The position numbers and the translations under genes were made by a program. Shown here one piece after another: positions 12,429 to 31,852 of a DNA stretch of 31,852 nt. Under the pieces are notes generated by a model. The model saw only the letters and a program-made list of their open reading frames with translations. It searched no databases and had not been told where the DNA came from. Source of the stretch: a virus; IMG/VR virus record IMGVR_UViG_3300027668_000058, positions 1-31,852 of that record; one strand, given 5' to 3'. How positions within the stretch are numbered: position 1 is the stretch's first letter; each line of letters opens with the position of its first letter.

Positions 12429-12455
12429 CCCCCGCCTTACCAGCGGGGGTTTTTT
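12429..12455 (+). terminator. Rho-independent terminator at the convergence point
   Basis: CCCCCGC (12429-12435), loop CTTACCA, GCGGGGG (12443-12449), then six T (12450-12455). It ends the rightward transcript. On the other strand there is no T-run after the hairpin, so it is one-sided; the T-run overlaps the stop codon of the leftward 2253-aa gene. Confidence 0.9.
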
Positions 12456-15400
12456 AGTTGAAGAGTTGTATTCCTTGGTCGTACTCTTCCAAGCTACTGC
12501 GCATTAATGGTGTGTACTCAATACCACCTATCATCTTACCTGTTCGTGTATCGAATGCCTTGCGAGACCGTTCGATTGTCTTTGGAAGGATAAGGTTTTT
12601 AGTTCGTGCAGCACGCGGCAACCCACTGTTGTACTCTTTTATATCCCTAAGTGCCTGTCTGTAGCCTTCCCGATCTCCGTTTGACGCCGCTAAGTTTGCT
12701 TGGCGTAGCAGAGATGTACGTTTTTTACCGAGGTAAGTATTCTTCCGCCGTTCGTTCTTGTTTATGTCATATTGTCTATTGACATCAGCGTTAGCGAAGC
12801 CGCCAGCTTGAGCGAGTATCTGAGCAATACCTATGTCTTCAACAACGGCGTCACCTCTGCGAGTTTGTACCTCACCTGTAGCTATCTGCTCACCACTCTT
12901 TAGCACGTTGCGCACCGCAGCGGGGGCTATAGCTTTAACAGCCCTTGCATACTCGCCCTTTGCAGCATCTTTAAAACCACGTTCAACACTTAGCCCGATA
13001 CCTACAACGGGACCGCCGAATTGTTCTATAAGAGTGTAGAATGCTGATTGGTCTTTATCAATAATTGGTGGGCGGTATAGCAGACTGTTCATACCGATAC
13101 GGCTGGCAACATCTACACCCAGAGCCGCGTTTATGGCCCCGCCATACAACCCTTCGCCAACGACCTTGCGAAGCATAGAATCAAAGTCATCCTCATCCTC
13201 GTCCTTGAAGAAGATGTTAAAGATTTGCCCTGCCGCACCTAACAACGGCATACCGGCAACACCGGCAAACAGCCCAGTAGATATCAGAAAACGCGCCAAC
13301 TGCCCCTGCGCTATTTTGCGGTTTGCTACGGTATCTGCATCGCCTCCTGCTTGGAACGCTTCGTTCGTCATAGTTGCCATCATGTGGTATTTACTAATAG
13401 CAAACCGCTTAAACAACATAGCGACGTTGCCCACCGCTGTCTGCGAATACACAGGGCGTCCTGCGGATGCTGTTGCACCCAGAGTAAATTCTGTTTCTTT
13501 AACGGCAACTGCAGCGGCTTCACGTTTTTCGAGGTCTGTAAGTGCGCTGCCTTTCTTTGCTTTCATACGGTCTACTTCAAGCATGTAGTTAGCAGTCATT
13601 GCAACTTCGCGGTTGTAACGCTCGGAATGGTGGAACAAGAAACTTGTCCAAGAGTTTATCTTCTCTAAAACATCTTTAGCGTTGTTCATATCCAGTTCTT
13701 CTTGGTTCAAGGACTGGTTTATCTGTGCGTTCTCTGTAGCAACTTCAGCTAGTATTTCTAAGTCTTTTATTCTGGGGTCAAGGTTAGGGTCAGTGTAGTC
13801 GTAGTTGCCTATAGAAAACCCTGCCATCCCAGTGTTAACTTTGCGTTTGGTCATGTTGCCATTTTCGTCCATGACGGCGACCATTTTAGTTTTTGGGCTT
13901 CTCGCTAGAATAGATGTAGCCGCACCCATAGCTCTGAAAGTAGCCTTGTCACCGTACCGACCCATGAGGCGTGGAGCCGTACTCATAAGTACGTCGAAGG
14001 TGGTAATAGCAGCGGAAGACAAGTTCCAACCCATAGTCCATGCGTACCCTGCAGCCGTGAGTGATTGAGACCACCGTGGAATATTAGGACTCTTGGCGAA
14101 GATAACAATCTTATCCAGCCTGTCTCGGTACAACATCGTAGTAGGGTCTGTTCTCTTTGCGTCTAGTCCTAAGACATCGCGTTGGAATATTTCTAGCTTG
14201 GCACCATACTCCATTTGCACAAGTTGACGGTTGTAATCACGTCCTTTGGTCTGAACCATATCTATAAGGTCGTATGCCTCTGCGGCCATGCCTGTAGGAG
14301 TAACATCTCCTAAGAAACCACGAACGTCTTTACGTTTTTGAAACGACTGCATGAACGAACGCTCTGGCATAGAGTCAATGGCAAGGTTTACAACACGCTC
14401 AACTGTTGCCTTGTCCGCACCCTGCGCGTTTAATATTTGAAGTACCTCGTAAACAAACGAGGTTGGCGGTGCTTTGCTAAAGTCTCGTACTTCAGAGGCA
14501 GTACCTGAAGACATCCCCACAGGGTTGCCATCCTTATCAACGATATACGCCCGTCTTGGGTCGTTTGCGGCGAGTTTAGCTAATGAACTTTTGTTGTATT
14601 CTAAAACTTTTACTTTGGCTTTCTCTCGCTGCCTCATTGTTTTAAAATATTCTACAAATAATTCAGGTTGACCTGTTTCAGGGTCAAGGGCGTTGTACTC
14701 CAGACGGTGTGGCCCAAAGCGGGTGAGTGGCGCAAACGGTTTAATGGTCCCACGTTCTCGGTTTAAAAGTTCGGCCAATTTGTCTCTTGCCTTCTTCCGC
14801 GCCGTAACGTCCCCTATGGTGGCCGCTAAGTTTGTTTCTATTGCGCCCATGACGTCGTTCAGAGATTTCTCAAAGTTGTTGGTTATAATTTTGTACAGCT
14901 TCTGTCCTTCTGGACCCATAGCCTCGTAGTCTTTACGTAGTTTTTTGTGGACTTCTCTAGCTCTGACTGGATCATACCTATCACCATCGCTTTTATCGCG
15001 TCCGTAAGCTTTTTCAAAATTAGCTTCACGAGGGTCAATGCGTTCTTTAGATGCGTTAGGCACCATAGATTGCAGGGTGGTGTACAGCTTTGGCGATTCT
15101 TTTCTAAAGGCTCTTAGATCGTTAACAATCGGGTCTAGTGATTCATTTCTACCACGCAAGGCCGCACTCATATTGTTTATTATGGTGTTAAGTCCTTCAG
15201 CGCCTTTGATGCGTGATTCCGACAAGGTTGTTAAAATGTTAACAGGTTGTAGGTTCAACCATACTTTTTTAGCGGTTAAGGGTATGTTACTACCCATAAA
15301 ACCTCTCCCCTCTTGCAAGTAGTCTAACATGCCCTTTTTGGTGGTAACGTCAACAGCCCCGGGCGCAGTGCCTATATCGTTTACAACTTCCGCCGCTCCT

Positions 15401-18400
15401 GCAGGATTTTTAATCTTCATGTATATTTTAGTAGCCGCTCGCCCATCGTAGCTTGGAGAGATTAACTCTTGCACCAAGTTGTCTACCGCGTCGAACGTAG
15501 AAGTTTCGGATACAGCAGGGCGTCCTAACAAAGTACGTACAAAGTTAGCTATAGCACGGGTCATTTGTTGCCACGGGTTGCGACCGTTTACTGTAGTGGT
15601 TTTTAGCTGTGTCTGGAAGTCAGGGTTCGCCATAGCCTCTGCAACGAACTCGTCTAGGGATGTGATCCCGTACTCTCCTGCCAACTGCTCCTTAGAACCT
15701 TCGTAGATTTTAGTGAGCTTCTTGGTCAGTGGGTGTGACTTGTTAGCTATTGTAGCGGATGTAACTGCGTGCAGCATCTCGTGTAGGACTGTATGCTGTG
15801 ACGTGCCCGTTTTTTCATCCAGCGTTATAGTGTTAGTCTCGGGGTCAAAGAAACCCGATACCAGTCCACCGTCATCAGCTTTAAGATTTTTACGTACCTC
15901 AATCGTGGTATTGCCTACGTTTGCCGCTAACCTCTTAGCCAGTGTGGCAACCTGCGTGTCCATGGCAGTAGCTGCGAGTGCTTCTAATGTGGCTTTCAGA
16001 TCGCCACTCTTTGCAGCGGTAACTACGCTGTCGTCTACGGGGAGGTCTAATGTGACCCCAGCGGGGAGCTTAAACTTCTCGCCCTTTAATTTTGCAATGT
16101 TTTCGATTTCGTTAAGTGATTTCCCAATTCCCTCTTGGTCAAATTTATATCCTCGCGCACTTACAACATAATCTAACAGCGCACCTTTATCCGCTTCTGT
16201 CTTTTTGGTTTTGGTAAAGAACTCTGTAACTCGTTGTCTAATAGACGTATTAAGTTCCGCAGCGCTTCTACCTTCTGCCGCAGCTTTTAACCCTTCTGCC
16301 GTAGATTTATCCGACGGTACTGACCCTTTACCAAGAGCTTCTCTAGCTTTTCTCTCTGTTTTTAGCTTGACAGTTTTTTCTTTGGCTTCTCTAGCCTGTA
16401 TTTCTGCACGTGTCTCACTTCCTAATGAACTTGGCTTTGCTCCTGCTGTTCTTGCAGCATTTCTAGCGACCAACTCAGGGCTTCCCACTCCGCTATCTCC
16501 AGATGCTGCAGGTTTTTTGGTACTTGCTGTGGTATCGGCAGGGCTAGAAACTCCGTCTTTGGGTTTCTTTGCCACATTTTGTCTAACAGAAGAAACGCCT
16601 TTTCCACTTGTTTTTGGTTTAGTTTCTGTAGTTTTGACATTGGTTTTCTCCTTTGCCTTTGTCCTTGTTTTAGCAAACGGTAAGTCTAATTGTGCTTCGG
16701 GGGTAGCTTGAAGTTCTCGGTTTATATTTGTTTTTGCTGTAGGAGAAGTATTCTTGTTCCCTGCTAGTGTAGCAAACTGCTGCCGTACGTCTGTATCGTT
16801 AAAGTCCTTACCCATAACACGTTTACGGATAGGGGCAGACGGTGGTACGCCCAGCTTGTCAAACAACGCAACGTCTACAATCTTCGGTTTTACAGTTGGC
16901 TCTGCTGCAGCAAAAGTATCTTGGCCGGGACGTTGAGGTGGAGTACCTACGTCTGCCTTACGCCCTAAATTAGTGAGTGATGGTTGGCTTTCTTTTACAG
17001 GTTTAGGAGAAACCCTTTCGTCCATAGCCTTCTGTCGAGGGTCTTTTAATGCCTCTACTTGCGTAGACACAACGGGGTCTACAAGAGGTGTAATACCTTT
17101 AGGAGTTTTAGCACGTATAACGTCTGACGCTTTGGCTATACTGGCAATTTCGGCAGGTGTAGCTGTGGCTTTTCCTATACCCGCTTTAGTTAATGCGGAT
17201 TCAAATGCACGCTGCAGGGCTGCTGGCTGTCGTTTATCCCCAGCGTTAGCCACGGTGTCTTGTAATATCTTTGTGCGTGTAGCCTCAGACTGCTTTGCCC
17301 GATCAGTATCGCGCTGGCCTTCCACTGTTTCTAGTGCGGATGCTTTCTGCAAGTCAGTTCGAGCCTGAGTACGTGTGTCGCTGCCAGTTCGATCAAGCTC
17401 TGCTATGAGGCTGTCTGTACCGGCATCTAACTCGTCCGCTTTTGTTTTACGCAACCTAGCGCTAGTGTCTTGCGTTTGTTCCAAAGCAAGTTCTGATTCA
17501 ATCTCGGCCTCTTGTTTCCCTGCTAGAGCGCCAAGCCCACTTTTTTGGTTTGCTACAGCTTTAGCCAAACGTTCTTTATCTTGTACATTAGTAGGTGCAG
17601 GTTTTTTTGCAGCCATCTCAGCGTTCTGAGTGATAGCCCCGCCAAACCTTGTTGGACCTGAAACTGCGTTTGCAGGGTCAAATTTTGTTTCTTCTAAAAC
17701 TTTACTTATAGAGTTTGCAGGTAGCCCAATGGTGCGGAAACGTCCTGCAGTTGCCGAAGATACTTCACCGGTAGCACGTATCTCGGCACGCGCTTTTTCT
17801 ACTAAGGCCATAGCTAGGCCACGACGTTCAATCTTACGTTCTGTTGGTGTTTTAGCGCCGGTGGTAGCAACACCTTTTGAATCTATTTCTATTGGGCGAG
17901 GTTTGTCTGGGTTTTCAAGCAGTAACTGCTCCATACGGTCGATTAAGTTAGGTTCGGTGTCTGCCTCTTGTGCTGCTGCACGTGCTTCACCCTCACGTGT
18001 TACGGCGTCGGAAGCTACTGGATCAAGGAAGTCAAACTCCGCTTGACGGGCGTCTGCACGTTCTGGTGCTGTACCCGCACCACCTCTAAGGTCAAACTCA
18101 CCTTGTTCGCCTTCGTAGTTAGTACGTAGCCCTGCGCCACGAGTACGATCTCTCTTCAGTGAACCACCCTCAAGGTCCATCTCAAACTGTTCACCCACCG
18201 CTGGGAGGGCACCTGCTTCTGGCTCTGCTTCTGGACCGGCGGTACGTCTAGCTGCTCCACCGATACCACCAAGACCACCACCTAGTAGACCCGCAGCTAA
18301 ACCAGCTTCGCCATACTCTCGTATAGCTTCTGCACTTGTTAAAGAAAGACCCGCTTGCGCACGTTCAAGAACGGCCTGCCCGATCTCTGTGGGTATTTCC

Positions 18401-19215
18401 GTAGCAGCACCGACGCCAGCGCCTTTTACAGAACGCGTAAGTAATCCTTGAGCCGCAGGTGCAGCTTTTGCCAGTGGGCCAAGAACATATTTTGCGCCCA
18501 ACATGGTAAAAATAGAATCCGCGAGTGCCTGTGGTATAGCTGTGAGCGCCGCCACGCCTTCGTTGACCCCAGTACGGTCCCCACCAGCGGCCGATATTTG
18601 CCGTTCTCGGTTTCCACCAAAGAACAAAGGGATTGCAGCTAATGCGCCACCAACAACAGCACCTATGGCCGCACCGGGGGCCGCTCCAATACCGAAGAAA
18701 GCCGCTCCACCAGCACCACCATAAGCAGCACCAGCGGCGGCACCAGCGGCAACCTGCGCCATCTGTGGAGCCGACTCACCTACTAACTCCCCCGCTGCGC
18801 TCAAACCACGACCTACACCGTCAACATCACCTAACCTTGTAGCGAAGCGTTCGGCGCGTTGCAGTTCAGCTTCATTAGAAAGAGCAACCTCGGAACCAAA
18901 TTTCTCAAGACCTTCAAGCCCTAAAACACTACCTATACCTTCTGTTGCAGACCCAAGGTTTTGTTGTAGAGAGTCGATACCACGACCAATACCACGACCG
19001 ATTGCAGTTTTGCCCCCTCTGCCACCTACAATTTCAGCGGAAGCGCGGTCTTCTAGTACAGCCTGTCTAGCTTGCTGCCGATCCAAAAGGCCACTTTTAT
19101 TACCTTCAAGACGTTGTTGAGTGGCTAACGTCAAAAGTTCCCGTAAAGGAGTATCTTTTGGGGCTTCTACTGTAACTTGAGAACCATCGTCGAGGTCTAG
19201 CGTATAAATGCCCAT
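12454..19215 (-). CDS. Giant virion/polyvalent-type protein with zincin metallopeptidase motif, 2253 aa
   Basis: Last gene of the leftward operon. Regions in order: residues 1-35 a small beta-grasp-like start; 149-200 a long glycine-zipper hydrophobic stretch ending A-I-P-L-F-F-G-G, suited to membrane insertion; about 330-1000 low-complexity, charged, Ala/Lys/Thr-rich sequence; about 1010-1230 a zincin-like domain with H1145-E-M-L-H1149 and a downstream S-L-D-E-F-V-A-E-A-M segment that could give the third ligand; 1230-2253 a helical region typical of large phage polyvalent or internal virion proteins, with a hydrophobic segment near 1970-2000. Such proteins can be packaged and ejected into the host. 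The peptidase may process virion proteins or act on host targets; activity is inferred. No lytic transglycosylase motif was seen. Confidence 0.85.
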   Translation of the reverse strand: MGIYTLDLDDGSQVTVEAPKDTPLRELLTLATQQRLEGNKSGLLDRQQARQAVLEDRASAEIVGGRGGKTAIGRGIGRGIDSLQQNLGSATEGIGSVLGLEGLEKFGSEVALSNEAELQRAERFATRLGDVDGVGRGLSAAGELVGESAPQMAQVAAGAAAGAAYGGAGGAAFFGIGAAPGAAIGAVVGGALAAIPLFFGGNRERQISAAGGDRTGVNEGVAALTAIPQALADSIFTMLGAKYVLGPLAKAAPAAQGLLTRSVKGAGVGAATEIPTEIGQAVLERAQAGLSLTSAEAIREYGEAGLAAGLLGGGLGGIGGAARRTAGPEAEPEAGALPAVGEQFEMDLEGGSLKRDRTRGAGLRTNYEGEQGEFDLRGGAGTAPERADARQAEFDFLDPVASDAVTREGEARAAAQEADTEPNLIDRMEQLLLENPDKPRPIEIDSKGVATTGAKTPTERKIERRGLAMALVEKARAEIRATGEVSSATAGRFRTIGLPANSISKVLEETKFDPANAVSGPTRFGGAITQNAEMAAKKPAPTNVQDKERLAKAVANQKSGLGALAGKQEAEIESELALEQTQDTSARLRKTKADELDAGTDSLIAELDRTGSDTRTQARTDLQKASALETVEGQRDTDRAKQSEATRTKILQDTVANAGDKRQPAALQRAFESALTKAGIGKATATPAEIASIAKASDVIRAKTPKGITPLVDPVVSTQVEALKDPRQKAMDERVSPKPVKESQPSLTNLGRKADVGTPPQRPGQDTFAAAEPTVKPKIVDVALFDKLGVPPSAPIRKRVMGKDFNDTDVRQQFATLAGNKNTSPTAKTNINRELQATPEAQLDLPFAKTRTKAKEKTNVKTTETKPKTSGKGVSSVRQNVAKKPKDGVSSPADTTASTKKPAASGDSGVGSPELVARNAARTAGAKPSSLGSETRAEIQAREAKEKTVKLKTERKAREALGKGSVPSDKSTAEGLKAAAEGRSAAELNTSIRQRVTEFFTKTKKTEADKGALLDYVVSARGYKFDQEGIGKSLNEIENIAKLKGEKFKLPAGVTLDLPVDDSVVTAAKSGDLKATLEALAATAMDTQVATLAKRLAANVGNTTIEVRKNLKADDGGLVSGFFDPETNTITLDEKTGTSQHTVLHEMLHAVTSATIANKSHPLTKKLTKIYEGSKEQLAGEYGITSLDEFVAEAMANPDFQTQLKTTTVNGRNPWQQMTRAIANFVRTLLGRPAVSETSTFDAVDNLVQELISPSYDGRAATKIYMKIKNPAGAAEVVNDIGTAPGAVDVTTKKGMLDYLQEGRGFMGSNIPLTAKKVWLNLQPVNILTTLSESRIKGAEGLNTIINNMSAALRGRNESLDPIVNDLRAFRKESPKLYTTLQSMVPNASKERIDPREANFEKAYGRDKSDGDRYDPVRAREVHKKLRKDYEAMGPEGQKLYKIITNNFEKSLNDVMGAIETNLAATIGDVTARKKARDKLAELLNRERGTIKPFAPLTRFGPHRLEYNALDPETGQPELFVEYFKTMRQREKAKVKVLEYNKSSLAKLAANDPRRAYIVDKDGNPVGMSSGTASEVRDFSKAPPTSFVYEVLQILNAQGADKATVERVVNLAIDSMPERSFMQSFQKRKDVRGFLGDVTPTGMAAEAYDLIDMVQTKGRDYNRQLVQMEYGAKLEIFQRDVLGLDAKRTDPTTMLYRDRLDKIVIFAKSPNIPRWSQSLTAAGYAWTMGWNLSSAAITTFDVLMSTAPRLMGRYGDKATFRAMGAATSILARSPKTKMVAVMDENGNMTKRKVNTGMAGFSIGNYDYTDPNLDPRIKDLEILAEVATENAQINQSLNQEELDMNNAKDVLEKINSWTSFLFHHSERYNREVAMTANYMLEVDRMKAKKGSALTDLEKREAAAVAVKETEFTLGATASAGRPVYSQTAVGNVAMLFKRFAISKYHMMATMTNEAFQAGGDADTVANRKIAQGQLARFLISTGLFAGVAGMPLLGAAGQIFNIFFKDEDEDDFDSMLRKVVGEGLYGGAINAALGVDVASRIGMNSLLYRPPIIDKDQSAFYTLIEQFGGPVVGIGLSVERGFKDAAKGEYARAVKAIAPAAVRNVLKSGEQIATGEVQTRRGDAVVEDIGIAQILAQAGGFANADVNRQYDINKNERRKNTYLGKKRTSLLRQANLAASNGDREGYRQALRDIKEYNSGLPRAARTKNLILPKTIERSRKAFDTRTGKMIGGIEYTPLMRSSLEEYDQGIQLFN
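15768..15783 (-). other. HExxH zinc-peptidase motif in the 2253-aa protein
   Basis: Codons for H1145-E1146-M-L-H1149, preceded by hydrophobic T-V-L and followed by A-V-T-S, matching the active-site helix of zincins. A conserved-looking D-E-F-V-A-E-A-M lies about 50 residues later, where many phage zincin domains have their third ligand. Confidence 0.7.
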
Positions 19216-29321: not shown

Positions 29322-30431
29322 CTACACCTCCGTCGAAAATATTGCCGCCGCGTAGGTGTTACCCATACCCGCAGCCAGACTCATAAATGGCCCCTTGTCA
29401 GGAGCAGACGCATCGTAGGACAGAAACACGTCGTCATGTTCGGTCCTATTGAGGATTTTTGGTACAATACCGCGTTTTAAGTCATTAAGCAACAGCCCTG
29501 TCTCCATAAGCCCACTTGCGCTAAGTGTGTGCCCAATAGAAGGTTTGTACGCAGTAGCTATAAACTCTGGTAACACGCTCGTTAAAGCCGCACGTTCGGA
29601 CAGGTTGTTCATCTTTGTTCCCGTCCCATGAGCCTTGACCAGCTTAACATCTTTAGGTGCTACTTTAGCTACTTCTAAAGCTCCTGTAACTGCTTTTGCG
29701 TACCCATTGCCATCAGGGCGTTGTCCTAGTGGGTTAGTGCTATCCTCAGACGCAGCATATGCGCCCATAAACTTACACAGTGGCTCCGCCATACCCTTAT
29801 GTTCACGCTCAAATACTGCTAGGGCCGCACCCTGCCCAACGTGGAACCCGTAGTTTTCACTGTCAAACGCAGAGGGCACACGAGGCGAGTCCAGAGGTAT
29901 GTGTGCGTTAGCTTCCCCAAAGAACTCTAAGGTTTGTATAGACGTAGCATCTTCTCCTGCCATCACAATAACACGGTCAAAGCCGTACAGATGAAACAAG
30001 TGTTGCATATCCATAAGCACTTTTATTCCTGAAGCACACGCGCTTGCGTCGGTACTAACGTGGTCCGCTACGTGAAAGATGCTCGCAATGCGTCCTGCAT
30101 AGATATTAGACAGAGTAATAAACGGTATCTTGCATTTGCTGTGCAGCTTTGCGTCAGGGTTACGGTCATATTTACCCGTGTTCCAACCCCAGCCTTGGCT
30201 ACCCGCAGCGAAAATAAAAGCCGTCTTACCCTCAACAGGGTTGTTAAGCACATAATCAATTACGTCTTGTTTTATAACACGGTCAAACGCCTTATGAGGT
30301 GGGTAGGATATACCGCTTTTGGCTCGTTTGTATGTGTCCATAATCACATTAACTTTTTGCGGATGTACTATGTCGTCGATGTCAACAATCTCTGTTGTAC
30401 AAAGTGTGGCGCATTGGGTCATGTATATCAT
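29322..30431 (-). CDS. Beta-ketoacyl-ACP synthase (KAS I/II type), 369 aa
   Basis: Condensing enzyme of fatty-acid synthesis that elongates acyl-ACP with malonyl-ACP. The thiolase-fold motifs are complete: nucleophile C132 in D-A-S-A-C-A-S-G, H268 in K-A-H-G-T-G-T, and H301 in K296-P-S-I-G-H-T-L-S-A-S-G. K296 has the spacing seen in FabF (Lys335/His340), and G-M-G-N-T near the C-terminus corresponds to G-F-G-G-T-N. At 369 aa it is shorter than FabF (about 410), mainly through a reduced N-terminus, and the FabF gate phenylalanine is replaced by Met. The start overlaps the ACP stop as ATGA. No fabD, fabG, fabZ or fabI is present, so it must use host malonyl-ACP and reductases, or make a one-step product. 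Confidence 0.95.
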   Translation of the reverse strand: MIYMTQCATLCTTEIVDIDDIVHPQKVNVIMDTYKRAKSGISYPPHKAFDRVIKQDVIDYVLNNPVEGKTAFIFAAGSQGWGWNTGKYDRNPDAKLHSKCKIPFITLSNIYAGRIASIFHVADHVSTDASACASGIKVLMDMQHLFHLYGFDRVIVMAGEDATSIQTLEFFGEANAHIPLDSPRVPSAFDSENYGFHVGQGAALAVFEREHKGMAEPLCKFMGAYAASEDSTNPLGQRPDGNGYAKAVTGALEVAKVAPKDVKLVKAHGTGTKMNNLSERAALTSVLPEFIATAYKPSIGHTLSASGLMETGLLLNDLKRGIVPKILNRTEHDDVFLSYDASAPDKGPFMSLAAGMGNTYAAAIFSTEV

Positions 30432-30715
30432 GTAACAGACTCCATAGCGGCTTCTACAGAATCAAATTCTCTAGTTTTATTGGCTTGCATGTATTCTTGC
30501 ATAGCGCCTAAAGACTCCGTGGGTACGTTAAAATCCTCAGTGTCAGGTATGCCGTATACCTCCATTAATAGCACCATAGTAAGCGTCACATCCAAGCTAT
30601 CCAGCCCGATATCTTCTTCTGACAGAGATGTTTCTAAAGATGTTGGTTTTGTGTATTTGTCTGGACGCGGATTGGTTTCAATTACGCACGCGTCGAAAAG
30701 TTCTATAAAGTCCAT
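30428..30715 (-). CDS. acpP-like: Acyl carrier protein, 95 aa
   Basis: Small acidic protein with the 4'-phosphopantetheine attachment motif G37-L-D39-S40-L-D42 and a following helix (V-T-L-T-M-V-L-L-M-E-V-Y-G-I) as in helix II of bacterial ACP. Ser40 is the attachment site, and a host AcpS-type transferase would be needed because none is encoded in the window. Helix II is less acidic than in E. coli ACP, which could narrow partner choice. It is translationally coupled to the ketoacyl synthase by an ATGA overlap, strongly suggesting a dedicated pair. The ribosome binding site is weak (AGGTG). A 58-nt gap separates it from the upstream virion gene; I see no clear promoter or terminator there. 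Confidence 0.92.
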   Translation of the reverse strand: MDFIELFDACVIETNPRPDKYTKPTSLETSLSEEDIGLDSLDVTLTMVLLMEVYGIPDTEDFNVPTESLGAMQEYMQANKTREFDSVEAAMESVT

Positions 30716-30773: not shown

Positions 30774-31094
30774 TTAAGTTACTTCAAGAATACTCGCTAC
30801 TACGTGTAACCTGTTAGCAGTAGCCGCTGTTACTTTTAGTATCTCACTAGCGCCTACAACAAGGGGAGCGGTTAGTAATTCTACGGTGCCGTTAGCCCCG
30901 ACTGCTGCGGTTTTAAACAGGCTAAACACAGACGTTCCGTTGGTCAGGGTAACCGTTATTGTGTCTGCGTTGCCCGTATCTTCTGACACTATGATAGACT
31001 TTATTATGCCTGTTGTTAGTGCAGCGCAGGTGTACAACGTGGTCACGTTAGTGGTCGTGAGGTCTTTTTTAGCGTTTACATATACATTTCCCAT
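30774..31094 (-). CDS. Predicted beta-rich virion protein, 106 aa
   Basis: Thr/Val/Ala-rich protein with alternating hydrophobic and polar residues and glycine turns throughout, typical of a small beta-sandwich used for head or tail decoration. I chose the ATG at 31094, which overlaps the upstream stop (TAATG), over an in-frame start 15 nt earlier. No enzymatic motif or signal peptide is visible. Location among tail genes supports a virion role; the exact part is unknown. Confidence 0.7.
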   Translation of the reverse strand: MGNVYVNAKKDLTTTNVTTLYTCAALTTGIIKSIIVSEDTGNADTITVTLTNGTSVFSLFKTAAVGANGTVELLTAPLVVGASEILKVTAATANRLHVVASILEVT

Positions 31095-31282
31095 TAGCCG
31101 ATAAACCACCCTATAGCTTCAGATTGTTTCGCTAAAGAATTGTTTCGCAACGCGCTGTCTAACTGATTAAAATACAATCGCAGAACTTTATTAGCTTCTT
31201 CAAACTGAAACGGTTCGTATTCTTTAGGTGGGTATGGCAGCGCTGGCGCACGAAACCCTATGACATGATCGTTATTAGCCAT
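31094..31282 (-). CDS. Small conserved virion-module protein, 62 aa
   Basis: Contains P-P-K-E-Y-x-P-x-Q-F-E-E-A-N-K-V-L-R-L-Y-F-N-Q-L-D, a pattern I have seen in small proteins next to tail genes in marine phages. The core is one long helix (about 27-50). Both ends overlap neighbouring genes in TAATG, so it is part of a tightly coupled tail operon. Function unknown. Confidence 0.72.
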   Translation of the reverse strand: MANNDHVIGFRAPALPYPPKEYEPFQFEEANKVLRLYFNQLDSALRNNSLAKQSEAIGWFIG

Positions 31283-31852
31283 TACCGTCTCCCATCAGGG
31301 CGCATGTCAAGTCTAGGCGAACCTAGCTGCCATTGTACGCCTACAGTGGAGGACTCTATTTTCATAGACATTTGCCTACCTCTTACGCGAGTGTGTATTT
31401 GACTTGTGTATACATCAACAGGAGAACTAGCAGTGCGTATCACCGTCCCTGTGTTTACACCACTTTCAGAAACAGGTGAGTTAAACCCCGACCCCGAAGA
31501 GTTTAAAGGTTGTAATGTCATGTTTATAGTCGGGCTGTTGCCTGTAGACCCCTCAAAAGACACATCTGGTATCATCCTAGACACAAGCGCAAACTGGTGG
31601 CCGTCTTCAAGATCAAATTCAGCAGAGGTTATAAACGCAGATATAGCGGCAGGTGTAGCTGTCTCGTTGTCGTCAATACCCTTTTCGTGTTCTACAACCA
31701 CGCCGTTGTATGTAGTTGCGAGTGGGAAAGCCCGAAGTCCTGAGTCCAACCAAGCAGATCGTGCCATAGACCCATAATACCATATGTTATCGACATAGTT
31801 GTAAACTACGTAGCTGTCCGCAGTATCCACATCCGCAGAGCAATAGAACCAC
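31282..31852 (-). CDS. P22 gp10-like tail/DNA-stabilisation protein, 5' end cut by window edge
   Basis: The reading frame stays open to the window edge (upstream residues W-F-Y-C-S-A-D), so the 190 residues seen are the C-terminal part; the GTG at 31830 is not the true start. The visible part matches a phage stabilisation or tail-needle-associated family: Y-N-Y-V-D-N-I-W-Y-Y-G, then A-x-x-x-W-L-D-S-G-L-R, then a Ser/Gly/Asn-rich section and the ending R-V-R-G-R-Q-M ... V-Q-W-Q-L-G-S-P-R ... R-P-D-G-R-R. Such proteins close the portal channel and join head to tail in short-tailed phages. This supports a podovirus-like virion. The stop overlaps the next start (TAATG). Confidence 0.78.
   Translation of the reverse strand, partial: WFYCSADVDTADSYVVYNYVDNIWYYGSMARSAWLDSGLRAFPLATTYNGVVVEHEKGIDDNETATPAAISAFITSAEFDLEDGHQFALVSRMIPDVSFEGSTGNSPTINMTLQPLNSSGSGFNSPVSESGVNTGTVIRTASSPVDVYTSQIHTRVRGRQMSMKIESSTVGVQWQLGSPRLDMRPDGRR

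Follow-up and report, generated by a model that had tools for sequence, protein, structure and literature searches.

The stretch of DNA analysed here (the window: 31,852 nucleotides, positions 1 to 31,852 of IMG/VR virus record IMGVR_UViG_3300027668_000058) encodes an acyl carrier protein (ACP) and a β-ketoacyl-ACP synthase (KAS) in overlapping genes, and the two belong to a large phage family, hundreds of uncultured water phages, that carries them as a tightly coupled pair. On the collected evidence we consider it probable, with some reservation, that the pair constitutes a mobile, dedicated acyl-elongation cassette by which host fatty-acid synthesis is redirected, and the results suggest that pair-bearing viruses use machinery of their own to make or alter fatty acyl chains during infection. 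The idea of a dedicated two-gene acyl unit, put forward in an earlier note on this DNA, is strongly supported by active sites that are intact and invariant, by the conserved coupling of the pair, by purifying selection and by the presence of the activating enzyme AcpS in some relatives; the mobility of the pair lends further support to the cassette. Phage genes of fatty-acid synthesis have so far been reported mostly as isolated annotations. What emerges here is a virus-only condensing enzyme with its own carrier, the catalytic residues intact in hundreds of phages, in a pair that sits together among early or late genes, has been lost in some phages, and is sometimes joined by the phage's own AcpS. 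Phage steering of acyl-chain chemistry becomes directly testable with two small proteins.

The ACP and KAS genes of the window family

Both open reading frames, their ATGA overlap, the G-L-D-S-L-D site of the ACP with Ser40 and the Cys132-His268-His301 triad of the KAS with Lys296, all recorded in the earlier note, are read in the sequence at the positions collected in Table 1. The overlap likely reflects translational coupling of KAS to ACP. A search of viral metagenomes with mapping of gene neighbourhoods, as the earlier note had advised, returned 8 relatives in the first IMG/VR scan, and 221 and then at least 563 loci encoding the viral KAS in the profile-led scans, and it resolved two genomic positions of the pair; from each scan the 80 loci with the best scores were examined, and the IMG/VR records are possibly fragmentary. 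ACP lies directly upstream of 144 of the 146 distinct KAS genes, the remaining two being located at contig ends, and an in-frame ATGA or GTGA overlap of four bases is found in 129 of these 144 pairs. ACP without KAS was not seen among the loci examined. Closely related pairs give a dN of ∼0.07 versus a dS of ∼1.0, and the pair is understood to be under purifying selection; between the window KAS and those of L004 and L006, dS is saturated.

Table 1. Positions of the pair, its neighbours and related features in the window and in other loci
Feature	Position	Strand	Basis or remark
Tail/stabilization protein, C-terminal part (cut by window end)	31282..31851	(-)	phrog_3287, 1.3e-13; left border of slot
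Two small genes (30774-31109 and 31094-31282)	30774..31282	(-)	between tail protein and ACP
ACP, 95 aa	30428..30715	(-)	phosphopantetheine site Ser40 in GLDSLD
ATGA overlap	30428..30431	(-)	ACP stop TGA inside KAS start ATGA
β-Ketoacyl-ACP synthase, 369 aa	29322..30431	(-)	Cys132-His268-His301 and Lys296
GNAT-fold protein, 152 aa	28862..29320	(-)	model pLDDT 93, Z 11.8 to RimI; T7 gp13 position, adjoins pair
Presumed internal virion/ejection protein, 2053 aa	22696..28857	(-)	position and conserved synteny; right module border
T4-like ACP/KAS regions	L334 5684-7922; L335 3373-5611; L336 601-7167; L328 1620-7760		
Phage AcpS	L250 1519-1884; L310 8084-8449; L251 742-1065		few kb from pair

Assignment of the upstream product as an ACP is founded on the site together with the family profile, and its phosphopantetheinylation is predicted. 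The Asp-Ser of the site is invariant in all 79 viral ACPs aligned, and the following Leu is present in 71 of them. Searched against the PDB, the profile of the ACP family (41 relatives) gave a top match with an E value of 1.4e-6, and the listed top matches are all ACPs. PF00550 was matched at E 0.1 or better by 11 of the 41 family members (best, 1.1e-5); the window ACP by itself has weak scores and, queried singly against Pfam, finds no match.

The downstream product is assigned to the KAS superfamily (KAS I/II type), with predicted condensing activity. The N- and C-terminal KAS domains of Pfam are both passed, with 29.9 and 70.2 bits against a cut-off of 20.8 (E 2e-19 for Ketoacyl-synt_C, 5.6e-7 for the other domain). 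The AlphaFold model (pLDDT 92) comprises the complete thiolase-type fold of a KAS, its residues 1-369 superposing on FabF with a Z of 41 and an rmsd of 2.6-3.0. Cys132, His268, Lys296 and His301 align with Cys163, His303, Lys335 and His340 of FabF and are invariant in 80 of 80 viral KAS. The viral pair thus shares with the bacterial FabF and FabB (KAS II and KAS I) and their AcpP the whole KAS fold, the Cys-His-His triad plus Lys, and a partner ACP with the DSL site. It is distinguished from them by a KAS identity of ∼20%, a shorter N-terminal part and a changed gate: Met356 replaces the gate Phe400 of FabF in 80 of 80 viral KAS, Asn276 replaces Asp311 in all those aligned, and the gate loop is of a GMGN(V/T)Y type as opposed to GFGGTN in FabF. 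Given the exchanges at Phe400 and Asp311, the substrate and the reaction of the viral KAS may differ, and a KAS with so unusual a gate is an enzyme worth study. In NCBIfam, the window KAS reaches 96.2 bits for the FabF equivalog TIGR03150, far below the threshold of 493.75. The invariant gate changes, the short N-terminal part and the missed cut-off therefore indicate a member of the KAS superfamily that is no FabF equivalog, and the latter identity is rejected. The NCBIfam score for FabF nearly equals those for an aryl-polyene-type KAS model and for AmcF, an acyltransferase; the near-tie of the first two does not discriminate between them.

Regarding origin, the KAS was placed, as the earlier note had proposed, in a tree that took in E. 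coli FabF, FabB and several kinds of Bacteroidota KAS. The podovirus-type KAS, that of the window family, forms one group, supported at 100/100, whose branch is several changes per site long. Since sampling of the cellular KAS was limited and led by patterns taken from the viral enzyme, this separation holds relative to the cellular KAS sampled, and it is in this sense that the viral KAS is described as a virus-only lineage on a very long branch. A scan of bacterial genomes gave one match at 47%, on a contig of phage-like character from a Balneolaceae MAG, and the KAS of this contig nests inside the podovirus-type group; the other matches listed are Bacteroidota KAS, ∼26-34% identical. Neither a bacterial origin by genome scan nor, considering the long branch from all sampled cellular KAS, a recent capture of a host fabF is supported.

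Genomic positions and the GNAT-fold neighbour

In the window and in most relatives of the first scan, the genes follow one another in the order of stabilization/tail protein, one or two small genes, ACP, KAS, a protein of ∼150 aa, and large presumed ejection proteins. The counterpart of the left border gene in MW202545 is annotated as phage stabilization protein. The right border protein has no clear family match, and from its location it is taken to be a presumed ejection protein. Together with a protein of 2253 aa (12454-19215), it is one of two very large virion-module proteins in the window. Pelagiphages with a related tail protein have a glycosyltransferase in the corresponding region and the relatives lacking the pair retain the neighbouring virion genes, which argues that the slot takes cargo. 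In L200 and L202, a decayed KAS stretch (KTSYKAKIGFTMGSSGLL; 5883-5984 in L202), with the catalytic His changed to Phe, is situated just before the GNAT gene, indicating that the pair was lost there and that its absence is secondary.

The second position is in a replication module. In ∼50 loci the pair is flanked by an SNF2-type helicase on one side and a conserved protein of ∼101 aa on the other, and the surrounding genes are of replication type. These helicase-linked loci correspond essentially to one clade of the KAS tree, plus L040, whose placement on a long branch is unsure. The ∼101-aa protein after KAS (L222-L273; e.g., L250 6826-7131) has no Pfam match and is possibly DNA-binding or sigma-like. 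In 6 of the 13 helicase-linked records searched, the GNAT is present elsewhere, in the structural module and without the pair. Every record in which KAS is matched in full has a single copy of it, and from the two positions in combination with the single copy, the pair is understood as mobile and moving as a unit. Its location in the replication module in one clade implies that the company of virion genes is no general property. A role in the virion, which the earlier note had derived from late expression, is thus weakly founded: a large related clade has the pair among replication genes, and the structural slot keeps its virion genes when the pair is absent or, in the pelagiphages, has a glycosyltransferase in the region.

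The gene adjoining the pair in the structural module encodes a protein without convincing match in family searches. The fold matches listed for its model are GNATs, RimI being the best; one 'Internal virion protein A' also occurs among fold matches. GNATs bind the CoA pyrophosphate at a loop of R/Q-x-x-G-x-G/A. This motif is absent in the viral family, which has N-x-D-x-x-x-N at the junction of strand 4 and helix 3, with an invariant Asp79 at the position of the CoA-pyrophosphate loop. Scanning of new contigs for the GNAT revealed all three genes, ACP, KAS and GNAT, in 40 loci; a further locus, cut at its edge, has KAS and GNAT, and 10 have GNAT and no adjoining pair, the conserved GNAT residues being retained in the latter. 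An obligate trio of ACP, KAS and GNAT is weakened by these 10 contigs as well as by the helicase-linked pairs, and the GNAT-only contigs together with the exchange of cargo in the slot show that the GNAT belongs to the core genes and can do without the pair. A GNAT is annotated at the corresponding site of roseophage CRP-902, and the authors of the cobavirus study equate such a GNAT with T7 gp13 (PMC6775973). The likeness concerns the neighbour gene only and consists in the same position between tail and ejection genes; no ACP-KAS precedes the gene in T7 or CRP-902, and a profile alignment of the GNAT family with T7 gp13 (single sequence) or CRP-902 gp35 detected no sequence relation.

T4-like phages and database relatives

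A parallel case is presented by T4-like phages, the loci of which were reached through relatives of AcpS. L328, L334 and L336 encode AcpS, an ACP-like protein and a KAS of canonical length, with ACP and KAS overlapping by four bases; the L335 stretch contains ACP and KAS with the same overlap and ends short of AcpS. A fatty-acid desaturase directly follows KAS in L334 and L335, and in L328 a late-transcription coactivator gene, which marks the phage as T4-like, adjoins KAS. The T4-like KAS falls outside the podovirus-type clade and joins FabF/FabB (100/98); by this placement it represents an independent acquisition. Two unrelated phage groups have thus converged on ACP plus KAS. Both groups sometimes add AcpS, and the T4-like group sometimes adds the desaturase, an enzyme of acyl-chain chemistry.

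The earlier note was aware of no characterised phage precedent. For the pair and its lineage this view stands: in the open-licence literature searched, no description of a phage ACP-KAS pair, a virus-specific KAS lineage or a phage AcpS was found. It does not extend to fabF as such, which has been reported in phages (PMC7029224, PMC8224337). The first of these reports (PMC7029224) describes fabF along with a stearoyl-CoA desaturase in freshwater pelagimyophages, and the loci L328 and L334-L336 are probably of the same kind. Alike in having a phage KAS, these loci exhibit the four-base ACP/KAS overlap and, in three of the four stretches, AcpS; they differ from the window family in a KAS that goes with the cellular FabF/FabB instead of being podovirus-type, and in the desaturase of two of them. 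Predicted prophages of Rhodobacteraceae involve acpP, fabF and fabG (PMC8224337); alike in the ACP and KAS genes, they are set apart by their description, with the genes in the host order fabG-acpP-fabF.

The only close relative in the phage record collection is MW202545, the others there being distant KAS matches of ≤∼30% identity, and a library of viral-protein folds contained one close member, one distant ketosynthase and two type III polyketide synthases. Two entries known from automatic database annotation only, UniProt A0A6J7X0R1 and MW202545.1 (ctpbd312, Manatee Spring), belong to the family, with a KAS ∼49% identical to that of the window, and in MW202545 the order of ACP, KAS and GNAT-fold gene matches that of the window. 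A scan for tRNA genes found a run of six in MW202545 (L010; 36842-37417) and none in the window or in the remaining loci covered.

Proposed function and its alternatives

In the mechanism proposed, a phosphopantetheinyl transferase would convert the ACP to its holo form; in most phages this is probably the AcpS of the host, and in a few an AcpS of their own. The KAS, whose synthesis is tied to that of the ACP through translational coupling, would take the acyl group on Cys132 and condense it with a malonyl unit to give β-ketoacyl-ACP. Host FabD (malonyl loading) and FabG, FabZ and FabI (reduction, dehydration) would supply the missing steps, and during infection the product would go into membrane lipid or into a special acyl compound. 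Holo conversion and condensation may be expected from the protein families; we infer that the Fab enzymes of the host work with the phage ACP and that the acyl chain ends up in lipid.

A phage AcpS, its protein passing the cut-off of the phosphopantetheinyl transferase domain, occurs in four pair-bearing contigs (G002, G003, G032/L251, L250), on the same strand as the pair and a few kb off. It is present in 1 of 15 and 2 of 38 records searched, most being without. Two further contigs, both fragments, encode AcpS (L318 687-1070, L320 7569-7952) along with the SNF2 helicase and the ∼101/102-aa protein, with no ACP-KAS between the last two. Enzymes of the FabD, FabG-like and FabA/Z families had no match in 15 related records, and none of 20 podovirus-type records has a desaturase; the remaining steps of the cycle must therefore come from the host or do not take place.

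That no downstream enzyme is encoded in these 15 records would also fit ACP and KAS serving mainly as a sink or competitor, which slows host fatty-acid synthesis through trapping of phosphopantetheine, malonyl or acyl groups instead of yielding a useful product. The pair is small and mobile, as befits such interference, and its replication-module position in one clade would suit an early takeover of the host. The condensing triad is invariant, although a sink could do without an intact one; some phages moreover invest in AcpS, and the T4-like phages join the same functions to a desaturase. We regard interference as unlikely.

Quite unlikely, and less likely than the elongation cassette, is a relay in which the pair makes acyl-ACP and the GNAT acylates an internal virion/ejection protein with a special chain, aiding membrane passage. 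If true, the phage would make acylated injection proteins, that is, it would have a pathway of virion lipidation. Acyl-ACP is the donor used by HlyC, LuxI and FeeM; KAS and GNAT adjoin in most loci of the first scan, and a clear GNAT fold in which the CoA motif is missing and Asp79 is invariant is permissible for a user of acyl-ACP. A lost CoA motif is, however, just as compatible with an inactive structural GNAT; the 10 contigs without adjoining pair retain the GNAT together with its conserved residues, and in a whole clade the pair is far off in the replication module.

The unusual gate residues of the KAS and its near-equal scores to FabF, the aryl-polyene-type KAS model and AmcF could point to a dedicated ketosynthase or acyltransferase for a signalling or defensive small molecule, as opposed to ordinary lipid; with no tailoring, ligase or thioesterase gene conserved beside the pair, we consider such a specialised product improbable.

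Chance reading frames are rejected on the Pfam match of 2e-19, the Z of 41 to FabF and the ACP profile E of 1.4e-6. An assembly artefact or host contamination, which the earlier note had allowed for, found no support and has practically no probability, in that records with different metagenome numbers (L002, L003) bear identical genes with identical neighbours, the viral KAS forms a virus-only clade, and the arrangement of the pair is kept in many diverged records and in one circular phage genome of 57 kb.
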